From contig JAGBDR010000083.1 of assembly GCA_017937385.1 (NCBI GenBank), forward strand, positions 1-64,000: a stretch of 64,000 nucleotides of DNA, read 5' to 3'. Under the pieces are notes generated by a model that was given only the letters and a program-made list of their open reading frames with translations, was not told where the DNA came from and ran no database searches. Shown here piece after piece: positions 1,020-47,136 of this stretch; within the stretch, counting starts at the first letter, position 1, and each line of letters opens with the position of its first letter. This stretch comes from Parabacteroides sp. GTDB lineage: Bacteria > Bacteroidota > Bacteroidia > Bacteroidales > Tannerellaceae. Made by a program: the position numbers and the translations under genes.

Positions 1020-2912
1020 ATGAGAAAATGGCGTATTGAAGACTCGGAAGAACTCTACAACATCACGGGGTGGGGGACTTCATACTTTGGTATCAATGAC
1101 AAAGGTCATGTAGTGGTAACTCCTCGTAAAGACGGCGTCGGTGTAGACCTGAGAGAGCTGGTCGACGAGTTGCAATTACGGGATGTGGAGGCTCCTGTAC
1201 TGATCCGTTTCCCGGATATTCTGGATAACCGTATCGAAAAGATTGCGAATTGCTTCAAGCAGGCATCCGACGAATATGGCTATAAGGCGCAGAATTTCAT
1301 TATCTATCCGATTAAAGTCAATCAGATGCGTCCGGTAGTGGAAGAAATTATCGGTCATGGCAAGAAGTTCAACTTGGGATTGGAAGCCGGTTCAAAGCCC
1401 GAACTTCATGCGGTGATTGCGGTCAATACGGATTCGGATTCGTTGATTATTTGCAACGGCTACAAGGATGAAAGCTATATCGAACTGGCTTTGCTGGCAC
1501 AGAAAATGGGCAAACGTATCTTTTTGGTTGTCGAGAAGATTAACGAGTTGGCTTTGATCGCCAAGATGGCCAAACGGCTGAACGTCCGTCCGAATATTGG
1601 CATCCGCATCAAGCTGGCTTCTTCCGGTAGCGGCAAGTGGGAAGAGAGTGGAGGAGATGCCAGCAAGTTTGGCCTGACTTCGAGCGAGTTGCTGGAAGCA
1701 CTTGATTTCCTGGAAAAGAAAGACTTGGCGGATTGCCTGAAGCTGATCCATTTCCATATCGGAAGCCAGGTGACCAAGATACGCCGGATCAAGACGGCTT
1801 TGCGCGAGGCGTCGCAGTTCTACGTGCAACTGCATGCAATGGGGTTCAAGATCGAGTTTGTGGATATTGGCGGCGGACTGGGCGTCGATTACGACGGGAC
1901 CCGCTCGTCCAATAGCGAGAGCAGCGTCAACTATTCCATCCAGGAGTATGTGAACGACTCGATTTCCACCTTGGTCGATGCCAGTGACAAGAACGGCATC
2001 CCGCACCCGAATATCATCACCGAGAGTGGACGTTCGCTGACTGCCCATCATTCTGTCTTGATCTTTGAAGTGCTGGAGACGGCCACGCTTCCCGAAATGG
2101 ATGAGGACTTCGAAGTGAGTGAATCCGACCATGAGCTTGTGCAGGAACTGTATGAGATTTGGGACAAGCTGAACCAGAGCCGCATGTTGGAGGCCTGGCA
2201 CGATGCGCAGCAGATACGCGAGGAGGCGTTGGATTTGTTCAGTCATGGCATTGTCGATTTGAAGACCCGCGCCCAGATCGAGCGGTTGTATTGGTCTGTG
2301 ACGCGCGAGATCAGCCAGATCGCTTCCGGCTTGAAACATGCTCCGGATGAGTTTCGAAAGTTGGACAAGCTGTTGGCCGACAAGTATTTCTGTAATTTCT
2401 CGCTTTTCCAGTCCTTACCAGACTCTTGGGCAATCGACCAGATTTTCCCGATCATGCCGATCCAGCGGCTGGACGAGCGGCCCGACCGGACGGCCACGTT
2501 GCAGGACATTACCTGCGATTCGGACGGCAAAATCGCCAACTTCATTTCGACGCGTAATGTCTCGCATGATCTGCCGGTCCATTCGTTGAAAGGAAAAGAG
2601 GCTTATTATATCGGTGTCTTCCTGGTCGGTGCTTATCAGGAGATCTTGGGAGATATGCACAATCTCTTCGGCGATACGAATGCCGTCCATGTGACGGTGG
2701 ATGAAAAGGGGTATAACATCGAGCAGGTCATCGACGGGGAAACGGTTGCCGAAGTGCTCGACTATGTCCAGTATAATCCTAAAAAGTTAGTGAGGACGTT
2801 GGAAACGTGGGTGACCAAATCCGTCAAGGAGGGCAAAATCTCGGTTGAAGAGGGCAAGGAGTTCCTTTCCAACTATCGTTCCGGCTTGTATGGATATACC
2901 TATTTGGAATAG
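1020..2912 (+). CDS. speA: Biosynthetic arginine decarboxylase (PLP-dependent)
   Basis: This 630-residue protein converts L-arginine to agmatine and CO2, the first step of the agmatine route to putrescine and spermidine. The family length is normal (about 630-660). The N-terminal half is an alanine-racemase-like barrel: the PLP lysine lies in YPIKVNQ near residue 100, the HFHIGSQ segment near 245 and the glycine-rich DIGGGLGVDY near 280 bind the cofactor; the C-terminal half (from ITESGRSLTAHH, near 335) completes the beta domain. The ATG at 1020 follows a purine-rich GAAGAAGAA ribosome site. It stands alone; a hairpin terminator follows at 3048. Highly confident. Confidence 0.97.
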   Translation: MRKWRIEDSEELYNITGWGTSYFGINDKGHVVVTPRKDGVGVDLRELVDELQLRDVEAPVLIRFPDILDNRIEKIANCFKQASDEYGYKAQNFIIYPIKVNQMRPVVEEIIGHGKKFNLGLEAGSKPELHAVIAVNTDSDSLIICNGYKDESYIELALLAQKMGKRIFLVVEKINELALIAKMAKRLNVRPNIGIRIKLASSGSGKWEESGGDASKFGLTSSELLEALDFLEKKDLADCLKLIHFHIGSQVTKIRRIKTALREASQFYVQLHAMGFKIEFVDIGGGLGVDYDGTRSSNSESSVNYSIQEYVNDSISTLVDASDKNGIPHPNIITESGRSLTAHHSVLIFEVLETATLPEMDEDFEVSESDHELVQELYEIWDKLNQSRMLEAWHDAQQIREEALDLFSHGIVDLKTRAQIERLYWSVTREISQIASGLKHAPDEFRKLDKLLADKYFCNFSLFQSLPDSWAIDQIFPIMPIQRLDERPDRTATLQDITCDSDGKIANFISTRNVSHDLPVHSLKGKEAYYIGVFLVGAYQEILGDMHNLFGDTNAVHVTVDEKGYNIEQVIDGETVAEVLDYVQYNPKKLVRTLETWVTKSVKEGKISVEEGKEFLSNYRSGLYGYTYLE

Positions 2913-43571: not shown

Positions 43572-44123
43572 ATGCATACGAACAGTGATGACATATTATT
43601 GCTGAAATTGATTAAACAAGGAGACCAGGTCGCTTTTCGGCATTTGTTTTATCAATATGCGGATTCTTTGGCACGTTTTATTACTTTTTATATCCATGAC
43701 CGGGAAAAATCGCAGGACTTGGTGTTGGATATCTTTACCTATATATGGGAAAACAGGCAAAACTTCGAGATAAAACTGACTTTAAAGGCCTATTTGTTCC
43801 AGGCGGCACGCAACAAATCTTTTACTTATATCCGGGACAAGAAAATCTCGATCTATCTGGAAGAGATGGAGGGACTGGAGGTTGTGCAGAACTATGATTC
43901 GGAGTTGGAGTTGCAGGAACTTCATCATCTGATCGAGGAGGCGGTGTCGCTTTTGCCTTCCAAATGCCGCGAGATATTCCGGAAAAGCCGTGAGGAGAAC
44001 TTGACCAATAAAGAAATAGCCGAGCAACTCCATATTTCAGAGAAGACGGTAGAAGGACAGATCACGATTGCTTTGAAGAAAATCAGGCTTCATTTGGGCG
44101 ACTCTTATTCTTATTTGTGGTAA
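43572..44123 (+). CDS. ECF sigma-70 factor of PUL 2
   Basis: A 183-residue ECF sigma factor: region 2 FRHLFYQYADSLARFITFYIHDREKSQDLVLDIFTYIWENR, region 4 LLPSKCREIFRKSREENLTNKEIAEQLHISEKTVEGQITIALKKIR. It is a separate paralogue from the PUL 1 sigma, with which it shares the family pattern but not a near-identical sequence. Its FecR partner is at 48667, about 4.5 kb away: two genes of the cluster and a mobile insertion lie in between. Confidence 0.93.
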   Translation: MHTNSDDILLLKLIKQGDQVAFRHLFYQYADSLARFITFYIHDREKSQDLVLDIFTYIWENRQNFEIKLTLKAYLFQAARNKSFTYIRDKKISIYLEEMEGLEVVQNYDSELELQELHHLIEEAVSLLPSKCREIFRKSREENLTNKEIAEQLHISEKTVEGQITIALKKIRLHLGDSYSYLW

Positions 44124-44204
44124 AAAGGCTCGAACACGCGTGGTGTTGCTTCGGGCAAGCCCTGGTTTACTTCGTTATTTTTATGACATCTTGTTGCTTT
44201 TATG

Positions 44205-44212
44205 TACCTTTG
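44205..44212 (+). promoter_or_regulatory. -7 box (TACCTTTG) facing the Abi gene
   Basis: TACCTTTG on the plus strand, about 90 bases before the Abi ATG. A mirror-image TACCTTTG on the minus strand is at 44288-44295, so two -7 boxes face each other across the RNA gene. Confidence 0.55.
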
Positions 44213-44223
44213 CAAGCGGACAT

Positions 44224-44282
44224 AAAAAAACCCGGATTCATCACCAGTAACTGAAAGCTGGGAGAGGAACGCCCGGGACTGC
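44224..44282 (-). ncRNA. Candidate abiF RNA: short structured RNA next to the Abi gene
   Basis: The minus strand has a -7 box (TACCTTTG, 44288-44295) with a TTG at about 17 bases further upstream (44313-44315), and ends in a stem followed by seven T (A-run 44224-44230 on the plus strand). In the roughly 59-base transcript, CCCGG (44273-44277 on the plus strand as CCGGG) pairs with the terminal CCGGG, and CCAG pairs with CTGG inside. Conserved RNAs named abiF RNA are known next to Abi genes (Weinberg and colleagues, 2017 comparative survey); this is a candidate by position and layout, not by a covariance search. Transcribed divergently from the Abi gene. Confidence 0.65.
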
Positions 44283-44298
44283 GGTACAAAGGTACAAA
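44283..44298 (+). repeat. GGTACAAA direct repeat before the Abi gene
   Basis: GGTACAAA occurs twice in tandem (44283-44290 and 44291-44298). The second copy includes the minus-strand -7 box of the RNA gene; GTACCTTTG (44204-44212) and CAAAGGTAC (44287-44295) form an inverted repeat enclosing the RNA gene. Confidence 0.6.
44288..44295 (-). promoter_or_regulatory. -7 box (TACCTTTG) of the abiF-type RNA
   Basis: The minus strand reads TACCTTTG 6 bases before the start of the predicted RNA. It lies within the direct repeat upstream of the Abi ATG (44302). Confidence 0.6.
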
Positions 44299-44301
44299 AA
44301 T

Positions 44302-44964
44302 ATGGAATATAACAAGGCATTTCTTGAAAAAGTTTTTTCCAGCAAGCGCATGGAAAGGTATTTCAGCCTCTACCCGGATGATGAAGCACGTGCCATCCGG
44401 CATTATCAGTGCAACCTGCAACTGGCGGAGGCATTCTATGTCAGCTTGTCGGTATTCGAGGTTACATTGCGCAATGCCTTGTGCCGTGAGTTGGAGACCA
44501 TGACCGGGCGAAAGGACTGGTACGCCACATTCCCCACTACTCCCGGACTTGCCAAACTGAACCGCTATATATCACAGGCAAACAGGCAGATAGCCGGGCG
44601 GCACGAAAGCATTACGCCGTCAAAGGTCGTTGCCGAACTGACTTTGGGCTTTTGGGTGGCATTACTGAACAGTGAATATGAACGCTTGCTTTGGAAAGAC
44701 TTGCGCTGTGCTTTCCCATTCATGCCCAAACGGAAGAGGCAGCGTAAAAATGTATCTGCGCCGCTGAACACTTTCCGCACATTCCGCAACCGGGTGTTCC
44801 ACAATGAATCCATTTGCTGGAATCTGTGCCGTGTAGAGGAAATTCATCAGGAAATGATTACCGTGATGGGATGGATGAACAAGGATGTCCCCGGCTGGCT
44901 GCAACAGACTGACCGATTCGATGCCGTATGTCGCCAAATCAGAGAAACCATGCAGTGGGAATAA
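44302..44964 (+). CDS. Abi-family (HEPN) protein, probable abortive-infection toxin
   Basis: A 220-residue all-helical protein of the Abi/AbiF-type group. The HEPN ribonuclease motif RX4H is present near the C-terminus (Arg162-NRVF-His167 in TFRNRVFHNES), preceded by the family segments HYQCNLQLAEAFYVSLSVFEVTLRNAL and PSKVVAELTLGFWVALLNSEYERLLW. HEPN Abi proteins are RNA-cleaving toxins that stop growth upon phage infection; AbiF-type proteins are related to the ancestor of Cas13 according to recent work that I recall (Zilberzwige-Tal and colleagues) and are held in check by a non-coding RNA. The ATG at 44302 has no strong Shine-Dalgarno site. The gene sits between a sigma factor and unrelated PUL genes, beside a relaxase fragment, so it is a mobile defence cargo. 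Confidence 0.82.
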   Translation: MEYNKAFLEKVFSSKRMERYFSLYPDDEARAIRHYQCNLQLAEAFYVSLSVFEVTLRNALCRELETMTGRKDWYATFPTTPGLAKLNRYISQANRQIAGRHESITPSKVVAELTLGFWVALLNSEYERLLWKDLRCAFPFMPKRKRQRKNVSAPLNTFRTFRNRVFHNESICWNLCRVEEIHQEMITVMGWMNKDVPGWLQQTDRFDAVCRQIRETMQWE

Positions 44965-44980
44965 GCGGCATTTCTACAAT

Positions 44981-45220
44981 TTATTTGTTTCGATTTCTGG
45001 ATTCCTTTCTAACGGCTTTGACCTGTTCTCTGAATATGGTCAAAGTCGAATCTGTACCGACTGTCTCCGTTAGTTTTTCGTAAGCCCCGATGCCTTGTTT
45101 TGCCAGCCTGTCGCACAAATCCGACCTGTTGTTACAACGGGGCAATGCCGTTTTAATAGCATCATATATTTGGTATTTCACCTTATCCTTTCCACGCAGA
45201 CGGTCACGTTTCACGTTCAT
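44981..45220 (-). pseudogene. Fragment of a mobilization relaxase (MobB-type), C-terminal part
   Basis: A 79-residue frame on the minus strand reads RLRGKDKVKYQIYDAIKTALPRCNNRSDLCDRLAKQGIG, which matches the region of Bacteroidota relaxases where DNA-cleaving protein sequences continue into ...KQGI and beyond. The N-terminal nuclease part is missing and the C-terminal part diverges after GIGAYEKL, so it is a decayed or truncated remnant. It supports a past integration of a mobilizable element at this site. Confidence 0.55.
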
Positions 45221-45299
45221 CTTGCCCTTGGAGAAAATGCTTCAATATTAATTATAAAATATCGTAATATTACTTAGTATAGAAAAAATCTGAACCGTT

Positions 45300-45330
45300 T
45301 TTTAGGGGAAGAAAGGGTTTTTTGAGTCTC
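45300..45330 (+). promoter_or_regulatory. PUL 2 conserved leader element, copy 1 (TTTTAGGGG ... GAGTCTC)
   Basis: TTTTAGGGG at 45300-45308 and GAGTCTC at 45324-45330, with the same 31-base span as the copy at 48626-48656. It precedes the membrane protein gene at 45394. Confidence 0.6.
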
Positions 45331-45343
45331 CTTTTATTATAGG

Positions 45344-45397
45344 ATGGCGCAGAAGATGGATTCTTGGCTACATATAAATATAAGTATAAGGCGATGA
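45344..45397 (+). CDS. 17-codon leader ORF coupled to the membrane protein gene
   Basis: ATG at 45344 gives MAQKMDSWLHINISIRR, ending in TGA at 45395-45397 that overlaps the ATG of the next gene (ATGA). The overlap suggests translational coupling. It begins 13 bases after the GAGTCTC of the leader element. Whether it is a real peptide is not known. Confidence 0.35.
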   Translation: MAQKMDSWLHINISIRR

Positions 45398-47136
45398 AAG
45401 CTAAATCATTTCTTTTCTGGGGAATTGTCTGTTGTTGCTTGCTGGGCTTTTTACAAGTACGGTATAGGTTTTATTTTTATTATGTCGAGCAGTTACAGCT
45501 TTTCCCTTTCACGTGGGACTATTGTTTGGAAACGTGCCGCCAGCCGGGTGGACTGGCTTGCTGGTTGGCTGGTTTCCTGTTGCAGTTCTATCATTTTCCT
45601 GGGGGCGGCGCATTGGTTTCGACCGGTTTGTTGCTTGTTGCCGGTGTCTTTATGCAACGGATTTGCCGGCAAACGGCGTCGCCTGCCTACTGCTTTTTGC
45701 CGGCCCTTTTGCCGGTTTTAGCTTTATTCCCTTTACATTTAGATGTGAATTACCGGTTGCAGGGAACAGTCGCCTTTTGCTTGATGTCGGGGGCCTTCCT
45801 ATTGTATACCCGTGTGCCGGCACCGAGGTGGCGGATGGTGGCAGGCTGGGTGTCGGTACCGGTGTTGTTCGGTTTGGCAGGGCCGGTAGCGGCGTTGTTT
45901 GCCGGTGGTGTCGTGGTGCGGGAAGTGTTGCTGCGCGAAAAGGGGTGGCAAGGTTGCTTGTTGTTGCCGATCGAAATGGTCTTGATACTTTACTTTTCTT
46001 TCCGCTTTTCCTGGCAACCGGAATATCGGATGGTAGTTTTGCCTGATTTTTATTACGAACCTTTATTGAAGTCAAGTAAAATTTATTGGGCTTGGGGTGC
46101 TTTCCTTTGTAGTATCTTATCGGCTTGTTTGCCAGCCATGAGAAAGGATAAAAGGGTGTCGGAACGAGTTGGTTTCGGGTTGGTCGTGGCTTCGCTTTTG
46201 CCTTTGTTCGCCTTTTTAGTGTGGATGAAAAACCAGGAGAACGGTGTTTGGATGAAGAATATGGAGTTGGACTATTATGCGCGAGGAGAACAATGGGACA
46301 AGATGATTGCCGGATATACGGCAAACTCGGATATACGGGCTTTGAACTGGTTGAACTTGGCGTTGGCTTGCCGGGGTGAGCTGGGAGATAAGATGTTTCA
46401 TTATCCGCAACGTGGCAAAAACGGCTTGTTACCCGAATGGGACAGTACGGTCCCAGGGGCGATCGTCTTGTCGGAGATCTGTTACCAGATGGGCGATCTC
46501 TCTTCTGCCCAGAAGTTCGCATTTGAAGGATATGTTTCTTCTGTAGATGGAAACCCGCGCCTTTTACAACGTTTGATACAGACGAATATCCTGACCGGAG
46601 CATACGCGGTAGCGGAAAAATACATCCGGATATTGGAACAGACTTTGTTTTACCGGCAATGGGCTACGGAGTGGCGTAAATATTTGTATCGGGACGATCG
46701 GGTAGAACAGGAGCCGTCGTTGGGTGGAAAAAGACGAGCGTGGAGCAAAGGCGGGCTGTATGCTGTGTATCCGGATTTGCTGAAAGTCTGGGAACAATTG
46801 GCGGTGAACAATCCCGCTTGTCCCGTCGCTTTTCAGTATCTGTCCGGCTATCATTTGCTATGCAGGAGCTTGAACCGCTTTGACGAGTTGCATCAGAAGT
46901 ATTACCATACGAAAGTGTGGTCCTCTCTTTCCGTCCATCAACAGGAAGCCGTGGTTGCGCTCTATCAGAAGACTCCCCGGGTATGGCCCGGTAAAGGGGT
47001 CGGCATGAAAGTCGAACAGCGTTACGGGGCGTTCGATCAGGATATGAATACGAAGCATGGCTATGTCAACTTTCGGGATGTCATGTCGGATGCGTATGGA
47101 GATACTTATTGGTTTTATTTATTGTTTAAGAAATAG
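45394..47136 (+). CDS. Polytopic membrane protein of the DUF6057 type, PUL 2
   Basis: A 580-residue membrane protein. The first 290 residues hold about nine hydrophobic segments (FLFWGIVCCCLLGFLQV, ALVSTGLLLVAGVFMQ, CFLPALLPVLALFPLHL, VPVLFGLAGPVAALFAGGVVV, CLLLPIEMVLILYFSF, WGAFLCSILSACLP, GLVVASLLPLFAFLVW); the rest is a soluble helical region, possibly TPR-like (WDKMIAGYTANSDIRALNWLNLALAC). I believe this family is DUF6057, found with TolB-like partners in Bacteroidota PULs, but that is from memory. The TTG-type frame extends to 45364; ATG 45394 begins the hydrophobic start. It ends nine bases before the next gene. Confidence 0.75.
   Translation: MKAKSFLFWGIVCCCLLGFLQVRYRFYFYYVEQLQLFPFTWDYCLETCRQPGGLACWLAGFLLQFYHFPGGGALVSTGLLLVAGVFMQRICRQTASPAYCFLPALLPVLALFPLHLDVNYRLQGTVAFCLMSGAFLLYTRVPAPRWRMVAGWVSVPVLFGLAGPVAALFAGGVVVREVLLREKGWQGCLLLPIEMVLILYFSFRFSWQPEYRMVVLPDFYYEPLLKSSKIYWAWGAFLCSILSACLPAMRKDKRVSERVGFGLVVASLLPLFAFLVWMKNQENGVWMKNMELDYYARGEQWDKMIAGYTANSDIRALNWLNLALACRGELGDKMFHYPQRGKNGLLPEWDSTVPGAIVLSEICYQMGDLSSAQKFAFEGYVSSVDGNPRLLQRLIQTNILTGAYAVAEKYIRILEQTLFYRQWATEWRKYLYRDDRVEQEPSLGGKRRAWSKGGLYAVYPDLLKVWEQLAVNNPACPVAFQYLSGYHLLCRSLNRFDELHQKYYHTKVWSSLSVHQQEAVVALYQKTPRVWPGKGVGMKVEQRYGAFDQDMNTKHGYVNFRDVMSDAYGDTYWFYLLFKK

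Follow-up and report, generated by a model that had tools for sequence, protein, structure and literature searches.

The window analysed in this work is a stretch of 64,000 nucleotides (nt) from the gut bacterium Parabacteroides sp. (contig JAGBDR010000083.1, assembly GCA_017937385.1), and the locus of interest consists of a gene for a HEPN protein related to abortive infection (Abi) proteins and, immediately upstream on the opposite strand, a predicted gene for a short structured RNA. The initial annotation of this DNA had proposed that these form a HEPN toxin and RNA antitoxin pair of the abiF-RNA type. The features identified by our analyses are as follows:

44302..44964, plus strand: HEPN toxin gene (toxicity inferred), 220 amino acids (aa), PD-T4-5/Abi_2-like, RNRVFH at residues 162-167
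44224..44283, minus strand: gene for a structured RNA of ~60 nt ("type A"), predicted RNA antitoxin (covariance model, covariation, linkage)
44273..44277, minus strand: outer stem, 5' arm, CCCGG in the RNA (folding and covariation)
44231..44235, minus strand: outer stem, 3' arm, CCGGG in the RNA (folding and covariation)
44258..44261, minus strand: inner stem, 5' arm, CCAG in the RNA (covariation)
44244..44247, minus strand: inner stem, 3' arm, CUGG in the RNA (covariation)
44224..44230, minus strand: terminal run of seven U, with the outer stem a probable intrinsic terminator (sequence; seven A on the plus strand)
44287..44294, minus strand: TAnnTTTG box (TACCTTTG; nn differs among loci), predicted to be a promoter element for the RNA (conservation)
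44205..44212, plus strand: second TAnnTTTG box (TACCTTTG) pointing to the toxin gene, predicted toxin promoter (sequence and conservation)
44127..45299, no strand: variable cassette (comparison with relative G012)

The open reading frame (ORF) and its RX4H HEPN motif (R162-N-R-V-F-H167), as well as the opposite-strand CCCGG/CCGGG stem, the inner CCAG/CTGG and the seven terminal T, are all present as initially annotated; the minus-strand box upstream of the toxin gene is likewise present, and its position, given earlier as 44288-44295, is corrected here to 44287-44294. The presence of the second TACCTTTG box on the plus strand, directed toward the toxin gene, means that the RNA would be antisense to the leader of the toxin messenger RNA (mRNA). 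An inverted repeat (44199-44212/44287-44300) was considered as an invertible promoter and rejected, its arms being the promoter-like boxes, of which the plus-strand one shifts between loci. The RNA stretch is conserved upstream of homologous toxins. The core pattern of the RNA, which was written after homologues had been seen, has a single occurrence in the window and none in 100 shuffles, and the assembly holds one toxin match and one RNA match. Both flanks can be aligned to the relative G012 (88.6% and 74.0%), in which 777 non-aligning bases stand in place of 44127..45299; because different DNA thus occupies the same chromosomal site, the cassette is considered accessory.

The RNA has the marks of a conserved structure. 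Alignment A1 comprises 45 of the 59 pattern-bearing sequences (44 distinct; near-copies were excluded by hand), and in it 99.0% of the cells of 14 base pairs are paired, with 32 cells and 6 of the 14 pairs altered on both sides. The covariation score of 0.187 compares with 0.066 in shuffled and at most 0.037 in slid controls, the slid control being one in which the structure is favoured by its derivation from the consensus of the same sequences. One pair of the inner stem occurs as AU, UA and GC, and the outer stem is re-written between loci from CCCGG/CCGGG to CCUAG/CUAGG, so that the covariation looked for in homologous loci is present. The stretches UCCUCUC and UGA are invariant, though the toxins drop to ~40% identity, and the U run is also found in the Bacteroidota rows of A1. 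Since pairing with an antisense target would require neither invariant UCCUCUC and UGA nor re-written stems, these features argue for protein binding rather than pairing alone. The covariance model R1, built from the 45-row alignment and its structure, matches the window at 44221-44283 (minus strand) with 84.9 bits, the window being itself a row of R1.

In the Bacteroidota a toxin-based scan yielded 54 loci, and the RNA was detected upstream of the toxin by pattern in 49 of them and by R1 in one more (L049); in the remaining four (L043, L044, L046 and L053) the 5' end of the toxin gene is missing. The isolate Parabacteroides sp. PF5-6 (L034) is one of the carriers of the locus. Several of the toxins (L049-L052 and L054) are internally deleted, three of them (L051, L052 and L054) also being out of frame, and the RNA is retained. 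A minus-strand box TAnnTT[T/C]G lies at one fixed distance from the RNA 5' end in 50/50 loci (the window and 49 others). After removal of near-copies 38 loci were left for box statistics: TAnnTTTG stands at distance 12 in 36 of these and at 15 in L048, where the pattern starts later, and one locus has TTCG. Positions 1, 2, 5, 6 and 8 (T, A, T, T, G) are invariant in all 38, position 7 is T in 37 and C in one, and positions 3 and 4 are mixed. TAnnTTTG is a promoter consensus of the Bacteroidota. Upstream of the RNA, at a distance of up to about 70 nt, a plus-strand box (in which the third T may be C) is found in 27/38 of the de-duplicated loci, compared with a mean of 2.0 in single-base shuffles, and its recurrence makes it probable that transcription of the toxin mRNA begins upstream and that this mRNA includes the RNA's complement.

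The same arrangement is found in a second phylum. On gammaproteobacterial plasmids the toxin is ~40% identical and the RNA is again upstream and antisense, including an Aeromonas plasmid (L237) carrying a toxin with type A RNA. A TATAAT-like hexamer (5 or 6 matches) lies exactly 6 nt before the RNA in 7/7 gammaproteobacterial loci (L064-L069 and L237), where the best TATAAT match elsewhere nearby has 4 matches, except for 5 in L065. As far as sequence can tell, this host-appropriate promoter element at a matching place in two phyla is the main evidence for the strand of the RNA. The pairing of a HEPN toxin with a short structured RNA, as initially proposed, is thus well supported by conserved linkage, covariation and conservation of the promoter box.

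Toxins at ~30% identity carry other minus-strand RNAs in the same position (types B-E). Type B (L058, L060, L062, L218-L220 and L223) consists of a stem, AAGCCUCU, a hairpin, GUA and a stem, mostly followed by a terminator-like hairpin. In its 7-row alignment 97.6% of cells are paired and 6 of 12 pairs are altered on both sides, with a covariation score of 0.556 versus 0.280; further pair types (13 vs 11.4) are not significant. Types C (L221, L222, L224, L225, L227, L229 and L230), D (L212) and E (alphaproteobacterial L236, L238 and L239) were assigned by eye, and no type was assigned to L231, L233-L235 and L240-L243. In the three type E loci a helix-turn-helix gene stands directly upstream on the toxin strand. 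On a toxin tree of 53 rows, with type labels that were set by hand according to the RNA, types B, C and E each form one side of one branch (97/90, 100/98 and 96/83, respectively) with one change each, and all 7 groups together need 6 changes, the minimum possible (shuffled mean 22.6). The RNA type thus appears to follow the toxin clade.

The toxin of the window resembles known Abi families at a distance. Among the PADLOC models it matches PD-T4-5 best (E 2.9e-10, 37.9 bits, over positions 12-209/309 of the profile; no curated cut-off is given), and its match to Pfam Abi_2 (PF07751; 18 bits, E 0.0038) falls below the curated cut-off of 25.6, which 2/8 relatives scanned pass (L060, 28.5 bits; L059, 26.1 bits). 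No NCBIfam match was obtained for it. PD-T4-5 is also the best PADLOC match of the relatives scanned, excepting the AbiF of phiC2, which matches AbiD instead (315.8 bits). The HEPN motif (R-N/H/D-x3-H) is present in the window toxin and in 53/53 proteins of the tree set, the outgroup AbiF included. Neither the window toxin nor its 23-row profile matched the solved AbiF 8vz6 at E<=1, and the positive control, phiC2 AbiF, did so with E 8.1e-30. The Parabacteroides acidifaciens toxin (L033:5001-5909), at 302 aa, has an additional C-terminal stretch.

The label "abiF-RNA type" could not be upheld. The Rfam family of AbiF RNAs, RF03085 (gathering threshold 37 bits), is not among the three Rfam matches at E<=10 in 44050-45350 (pntA, SNORD83 and sR10, E 2.6-7.4, all judged to be chance), no Rfam family reaches its gathering level anywhere in the window, and RF03085 has 0 matches at E<=10 in the genome of the window. 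In the positive control phiC2 it is found upstream of abiF, on the sense strand, with 37.6 bits; a phylum search gave matches in 0/198 genomes, and as no control match was obtained there either, this result is not evidence of absence. The two systems share a HEPN Abi_2-type toxin with an R-x4-H motif adjoining a short structured RNA (AbiF/AbiFr and AbiF-RCd22, which are type III-like), and a CCUCU stretch on the 5' side of the RNA; the RF03085 consensus also holds the 8-mer AAGCCUCU of type B, which hints at common ancestry or at convergence of a toxin-binding stretch. They differ in that the AbiF RNA is sense, upstream of abiF and co-transcribed, whereas the RNA of the window is a single antisense unit of another family with its own promoter-like box, and in toxin length (287 aa in phiC2 and 300 aa in 8vz6, but 220 aa here). 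True PD-T4-5, an Abi gene of an Escherichia coli plasmid active against T4, scores 443.8 bits (L232), in contrast to the 37.9 bits of the window toxin.

Two other kinds of toxin-antitoxin (TA) system were compared. ToxIN, a type III TA system, likewise has an RNA antitoxin that binds a toxic RNase, a property expected here from RNA conservation, but the RNA of the window is without tandem repeats (0 direct repeat families in 44000-45400) and does not lie in a sense leader; the toxin of ToxIN has the ToxN fold, and that of the window is HEPN. Type I systems resemble the locus in layout, the RNA being antisense to the predicted toxin transcript. A typical type I toxin is a small hydrophobic peptide, whereas the window encodes a 220-aa enzyme-like protein and an RNA conserved beyond the needs of pairing. 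To our knowledge, RNA-antitoxin control of HEPN toxins has been known only for AbiF with a sense leader.

The RNA RCd22 has been described to bind and neutralise the AbiF of Clostridioides difficile (PMC12373285), and AbiF-type proteins have been proposed as forebears of Cas13 (PMC12373285, PMC12737573). PD-T4-5 has been characterised as TA-like and as a distant relative of AbiF/D (PMC9519451); the phrase "non-coding RNA" has 0 occurrences in the main text of that paper, whose statements on PD-T4-5, as far as they were covered, mention no RNA partner. A phage-borne abiF RNA has been noted earlier, an RF03085 small RNA being predicted in cyanophage S-CREM1, which carries 24 transfer RNAs (tRNAs) (PMC9964418). 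Further covariance models of AbiF RNAs are due to Zilberzwige-Tal et al. 2025 (Cell; as cited in PMC12804078), and these could include some RNAs of the present set. Among the matches listed in our literature comparison, which drew on portions of PMC12373285, PMC12737573, PMC9519451, PMC13096335, PMC12197685, PMC12804078 and PMC9964418, we recognised none in which an antisense RNA is described for Abi_2/PD-T4-5 toxins or a comparable decoy RNA is reported.

Copies of the RNA are also found apart from the toxin. R1 matched at 18 places in 17/395 genomes of the phylum; two matches (L208, 28.1 bits; L209, 26.0 bits) were dropped as chance on the basis of their sequence, leaving 16 credible ones, and a toxin is found nearby in 7 of these (L193, L194 and L198-L202; partial in L199). 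Eight of the nine others belong to the genus g64, and a search for tRNA in these nine loci found none; these RNAs are perhaps leftover or protective antitoxins.

Viral copies were obtained from IMG/VR by two pattern scans (at least 120 loci with a looser pattern; 22 contigs with a stricter one, 10 of them already in the first), which selected the inner core of the RNA and not its outer stems, and which were filtered with R1. An R1-positive RNA is accompanied by a toxin in six records: L105 (=L245), L117 (=L246), L257 (=L247), L265 (=L248), L244 and L084 (cut by the contig end). Merging of identical copies leaves 8 kinds of toxin-less viral RNA, with R1 scores of 39.9 bits (L166/L092), 38.5 (L142), 39.2 (L259), 41.7 (L076), 33.5 (L264), 31.3 (L109/L179/L256/L263), 24.9 (L174) and 22.1 (L116); L174 and L116 are regarded as weak because pattern-only matches reach about 11-19 bits with R1. 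A toxin profile run against whole records found no match in 10 of 11 (nine toxin-less viral contigs, one or two per kind, which may be fragments, and phage 44RR2.8t), and the eleventh, the positive control L105, was matched. Folded as single copies, L142 (z -3.85), L076 (-2.72) and L116 (-1.66) have negative z scores, and L109 (0.57) and two L166 elements (0.90 and -0.16) are no better than shuffles.

Four of the 8 toxin-less kinds (L166/L092, L142, L259 and L116) have a same-strand tRNA no more than 300 nt away, compared with 1/115 other pattern loci (Fisher p 3.8e-5; a post hoc test of an association noticed beforehand, with the 115 not de-duplicated). Counted per locus, 5/17 R1-positive loci have a tRNA neighbour (5 of these 17 loci being toxin-bearing), versus the same 1/115. 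The elements concerned are listed below:

L166:769-809 and 1737-1790, and L092:1883-1923 and 2851-2904, minus strand: type A core and type B RNA in one tRNA array (R1, R2)
L259:1932-1990, plus strand: toxin-less RNA beside a viral tRNA, same strand (R1)
L142:859-922, plus strand: toxin-less RNA beside a viral tRNA, same strand (R1)
L116:8496-8568, minus strand: toxin-less RNA beside a viral tRNA, near a contig end, weak (R1, 22.1 bits)
L267:4163-4209, minus strand: element of Aeromonas phage 44RR2.8t adjoining tRNA-Pro, unannotated in the record, with the same core (pattern, R1)

The contigs L166 (78 kb) and L092 (67 kb) have the same sequence here, so that one virus holds two RNA types in one tRNA array; the tRNAs of the array (Trp, Arg and Met) are on the same strand, and no toxin was found in either record. 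The type B copy was found first by pattern and then with the type B model R2 (29.3 bits, E 1.1e-5), and it is outside the training rows of R2. Aeromonas T4-like phages hold a conserved relative beside tRNA-Pro. Its representative in 44RR2.8t is the single tRNA-adjoining locus among the 115 others, with an R1 score of 17.1 bits (E 0.017 genome-wide, the sole match at E<=0.1). A 301-base stretch that includes both tRNA-Pro and the element has matches in 154 phage records, of which 66 are from Aeromonas (40 among the matches listed), some perhaps through the tRNA alone. Aligned with five other Aeromonas phages (six rows, 5 distinct), the element has 98.2% of cells paired and 4/11 pairs altered on both sides (5 cells), in a structure that was set by eye after type A and in which further pair types are not above shuffles. 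In phage T4 the annotated small stable RNAs rnaC and rnaD of the tRNA array (L268:1409-1672, minus strand) were considered as members and rejected by R1, R2 and eye, R1 having matched nothing at E<=0.1 across the entire record and R2 nothing in the piece L268. When named phages were searched directly with the nucleotide sequence of the RNA, short, chance-like matches were all that was obtained.

Judged by sequence comparison, the locus thus presents a gene pair with a covarying RNA structure, a promoter-like box, an antisense orientation and an RNA type that follows the toxin clade, and we consider it likely to be a two-gene abortive-infection module of an RNA antitoxin and a HEPN toxin in an antisense-encoded layout. 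From its R-x4-H motif and AbiF kin, the 220-aa protein would be a HEPN RNase toxin, probably a dimer. The ~60-nt RNA would be transcribed independently from the opposite strand with its own promoter and terminator, and its predicted fold consists of an outer stem, the 5' stretch that contains the invariant UCCUCUC, an inner hairpin and the UGA strand. We infer that it binds the toxin directly and holds it inactive, in the manner of the AbiF RNAs RCd22 and AbiFr; its antisense position relative to the toxin leader may in addition lower toxin expression, through pairing or through transcriptional interference. Take-over of host transcription by a phage would presumably deplete the RNA and release the toxin, which would then stop growth, giving the module a putative anti-phage role. 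The toxin-less viral RNAs may be decoys against such a defence, and we put forward tentatively, at somewhat less than even chances, the broader proposal that RNA antitoxins which are encoded antisense and bind protein (types A-E) guard PD-T4-5/Abi_2 HEPN toxins widely, and that phages have captured these RNAs as decoys, often in tRNA arrays, so as to hold the toxins inactive. Two viral kinds, L076 (near-identical to the RNA of the toxin-bearing L105) and L264 (close to that RNA), are by this resemblance possibly remnants of a lost module and not decoys.

A number of results weigh against the module interpretation. Among 11 viral toxin loci, five have a strong R1 match, two a weak one (15.0 bits) and four none near the toxin start; in nine of the 16 credible bacterial matches (L195-L197, L203-L207 and L210) no toxin was found within ~1.5 kb; and a search for type A RNA before true PD-T4-5 (L232) did not find it. 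On the toxin tree, whose backbone is poorly supported, 2 changes are required for type A (a single one in 12% of bootstrap trees), and of the five covariation measures one, the count of further pair types, does not exceed that of shuffles (8 vs 9.1). The antisense layout, which gives perfect complementarity to the toxin leader, fits equally well a type I-like system in which the RNA works solely by pairing with that leader or by transcriptional interference, and the plus-strand boxes in 27/38 loci (shuffled mean 2.0) are consistent with such a target. This explanation is nevertheless unlikely, since neither the cross-phylum conservation of the loop nor the compensatory changes in the stems is needed for pairing, and RNA copies exist with no toxin in the record or nearby.

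Also to be counted among these results, single-sequence folding of 44205-44301 is stronger for the plus strand (z -4.60) than for the minus strand (z -2.41). Together with the sense leader of known AbiF RNAs, this could point to a functional plus-strand form, viz. a structured leader or attenuator of the toxin mRNA as in AbiD1 or RCd22. The invariable spacing of the minus-strand box and of the gammaproteobacterial -10-like hexamer, the U run on the minus strand, and the common strand of the tRNA-adjoining viral copies and their tRNAs make this very improbable. Promoter box, terminal U run and cross-phylum comparison all favour the minus strand, and single-sequence folding is not decisive. The kinship of AbiF-type proteins to Cas13, proposed in parts of the literature cited above (PMC12373285, PMC12737573), could suggest that the RNA guides or activates the HEPN protein and does not inhibit it; we regard this as the least probable alternative, in view of the lack of a variable spacer-like stretch in an RNA that is mostly strongly conserved (mean column identity 79%).

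If the RNA is a protein-binding antitoxin, as we favour, RNA-antitoxin control of HEPN toxins would extend to the PD-T4-5-like toxins of Bacteroidota and Proteobacteria, in a new form with the opposite gene layout and with an RNA for which no Rfam family gave a gathering-level match in the window. The location of a possible hidden RNA partner in the kin of PD-T4-5 is also suggested. If the decoy proposal is true, certain small RNAs in phage tRNA arrays that have lacked an explanation would be given a function, and RNA anti-defence genes would be defined as a class. The toxin-less viral copies allow a direct test of whether antitoxin RNAs serve phages in anti-defence, and so of a role for non-tRNA RNAs in tRNA arrays.

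Lastly, an ORF of 79 aa lies 3' of the toxin gene (44981-45220, minus strand); it has no Pfam, NCBIfam or PADLOC match at E<=1, and we take it to resemble the C-terminus of a relaxase.
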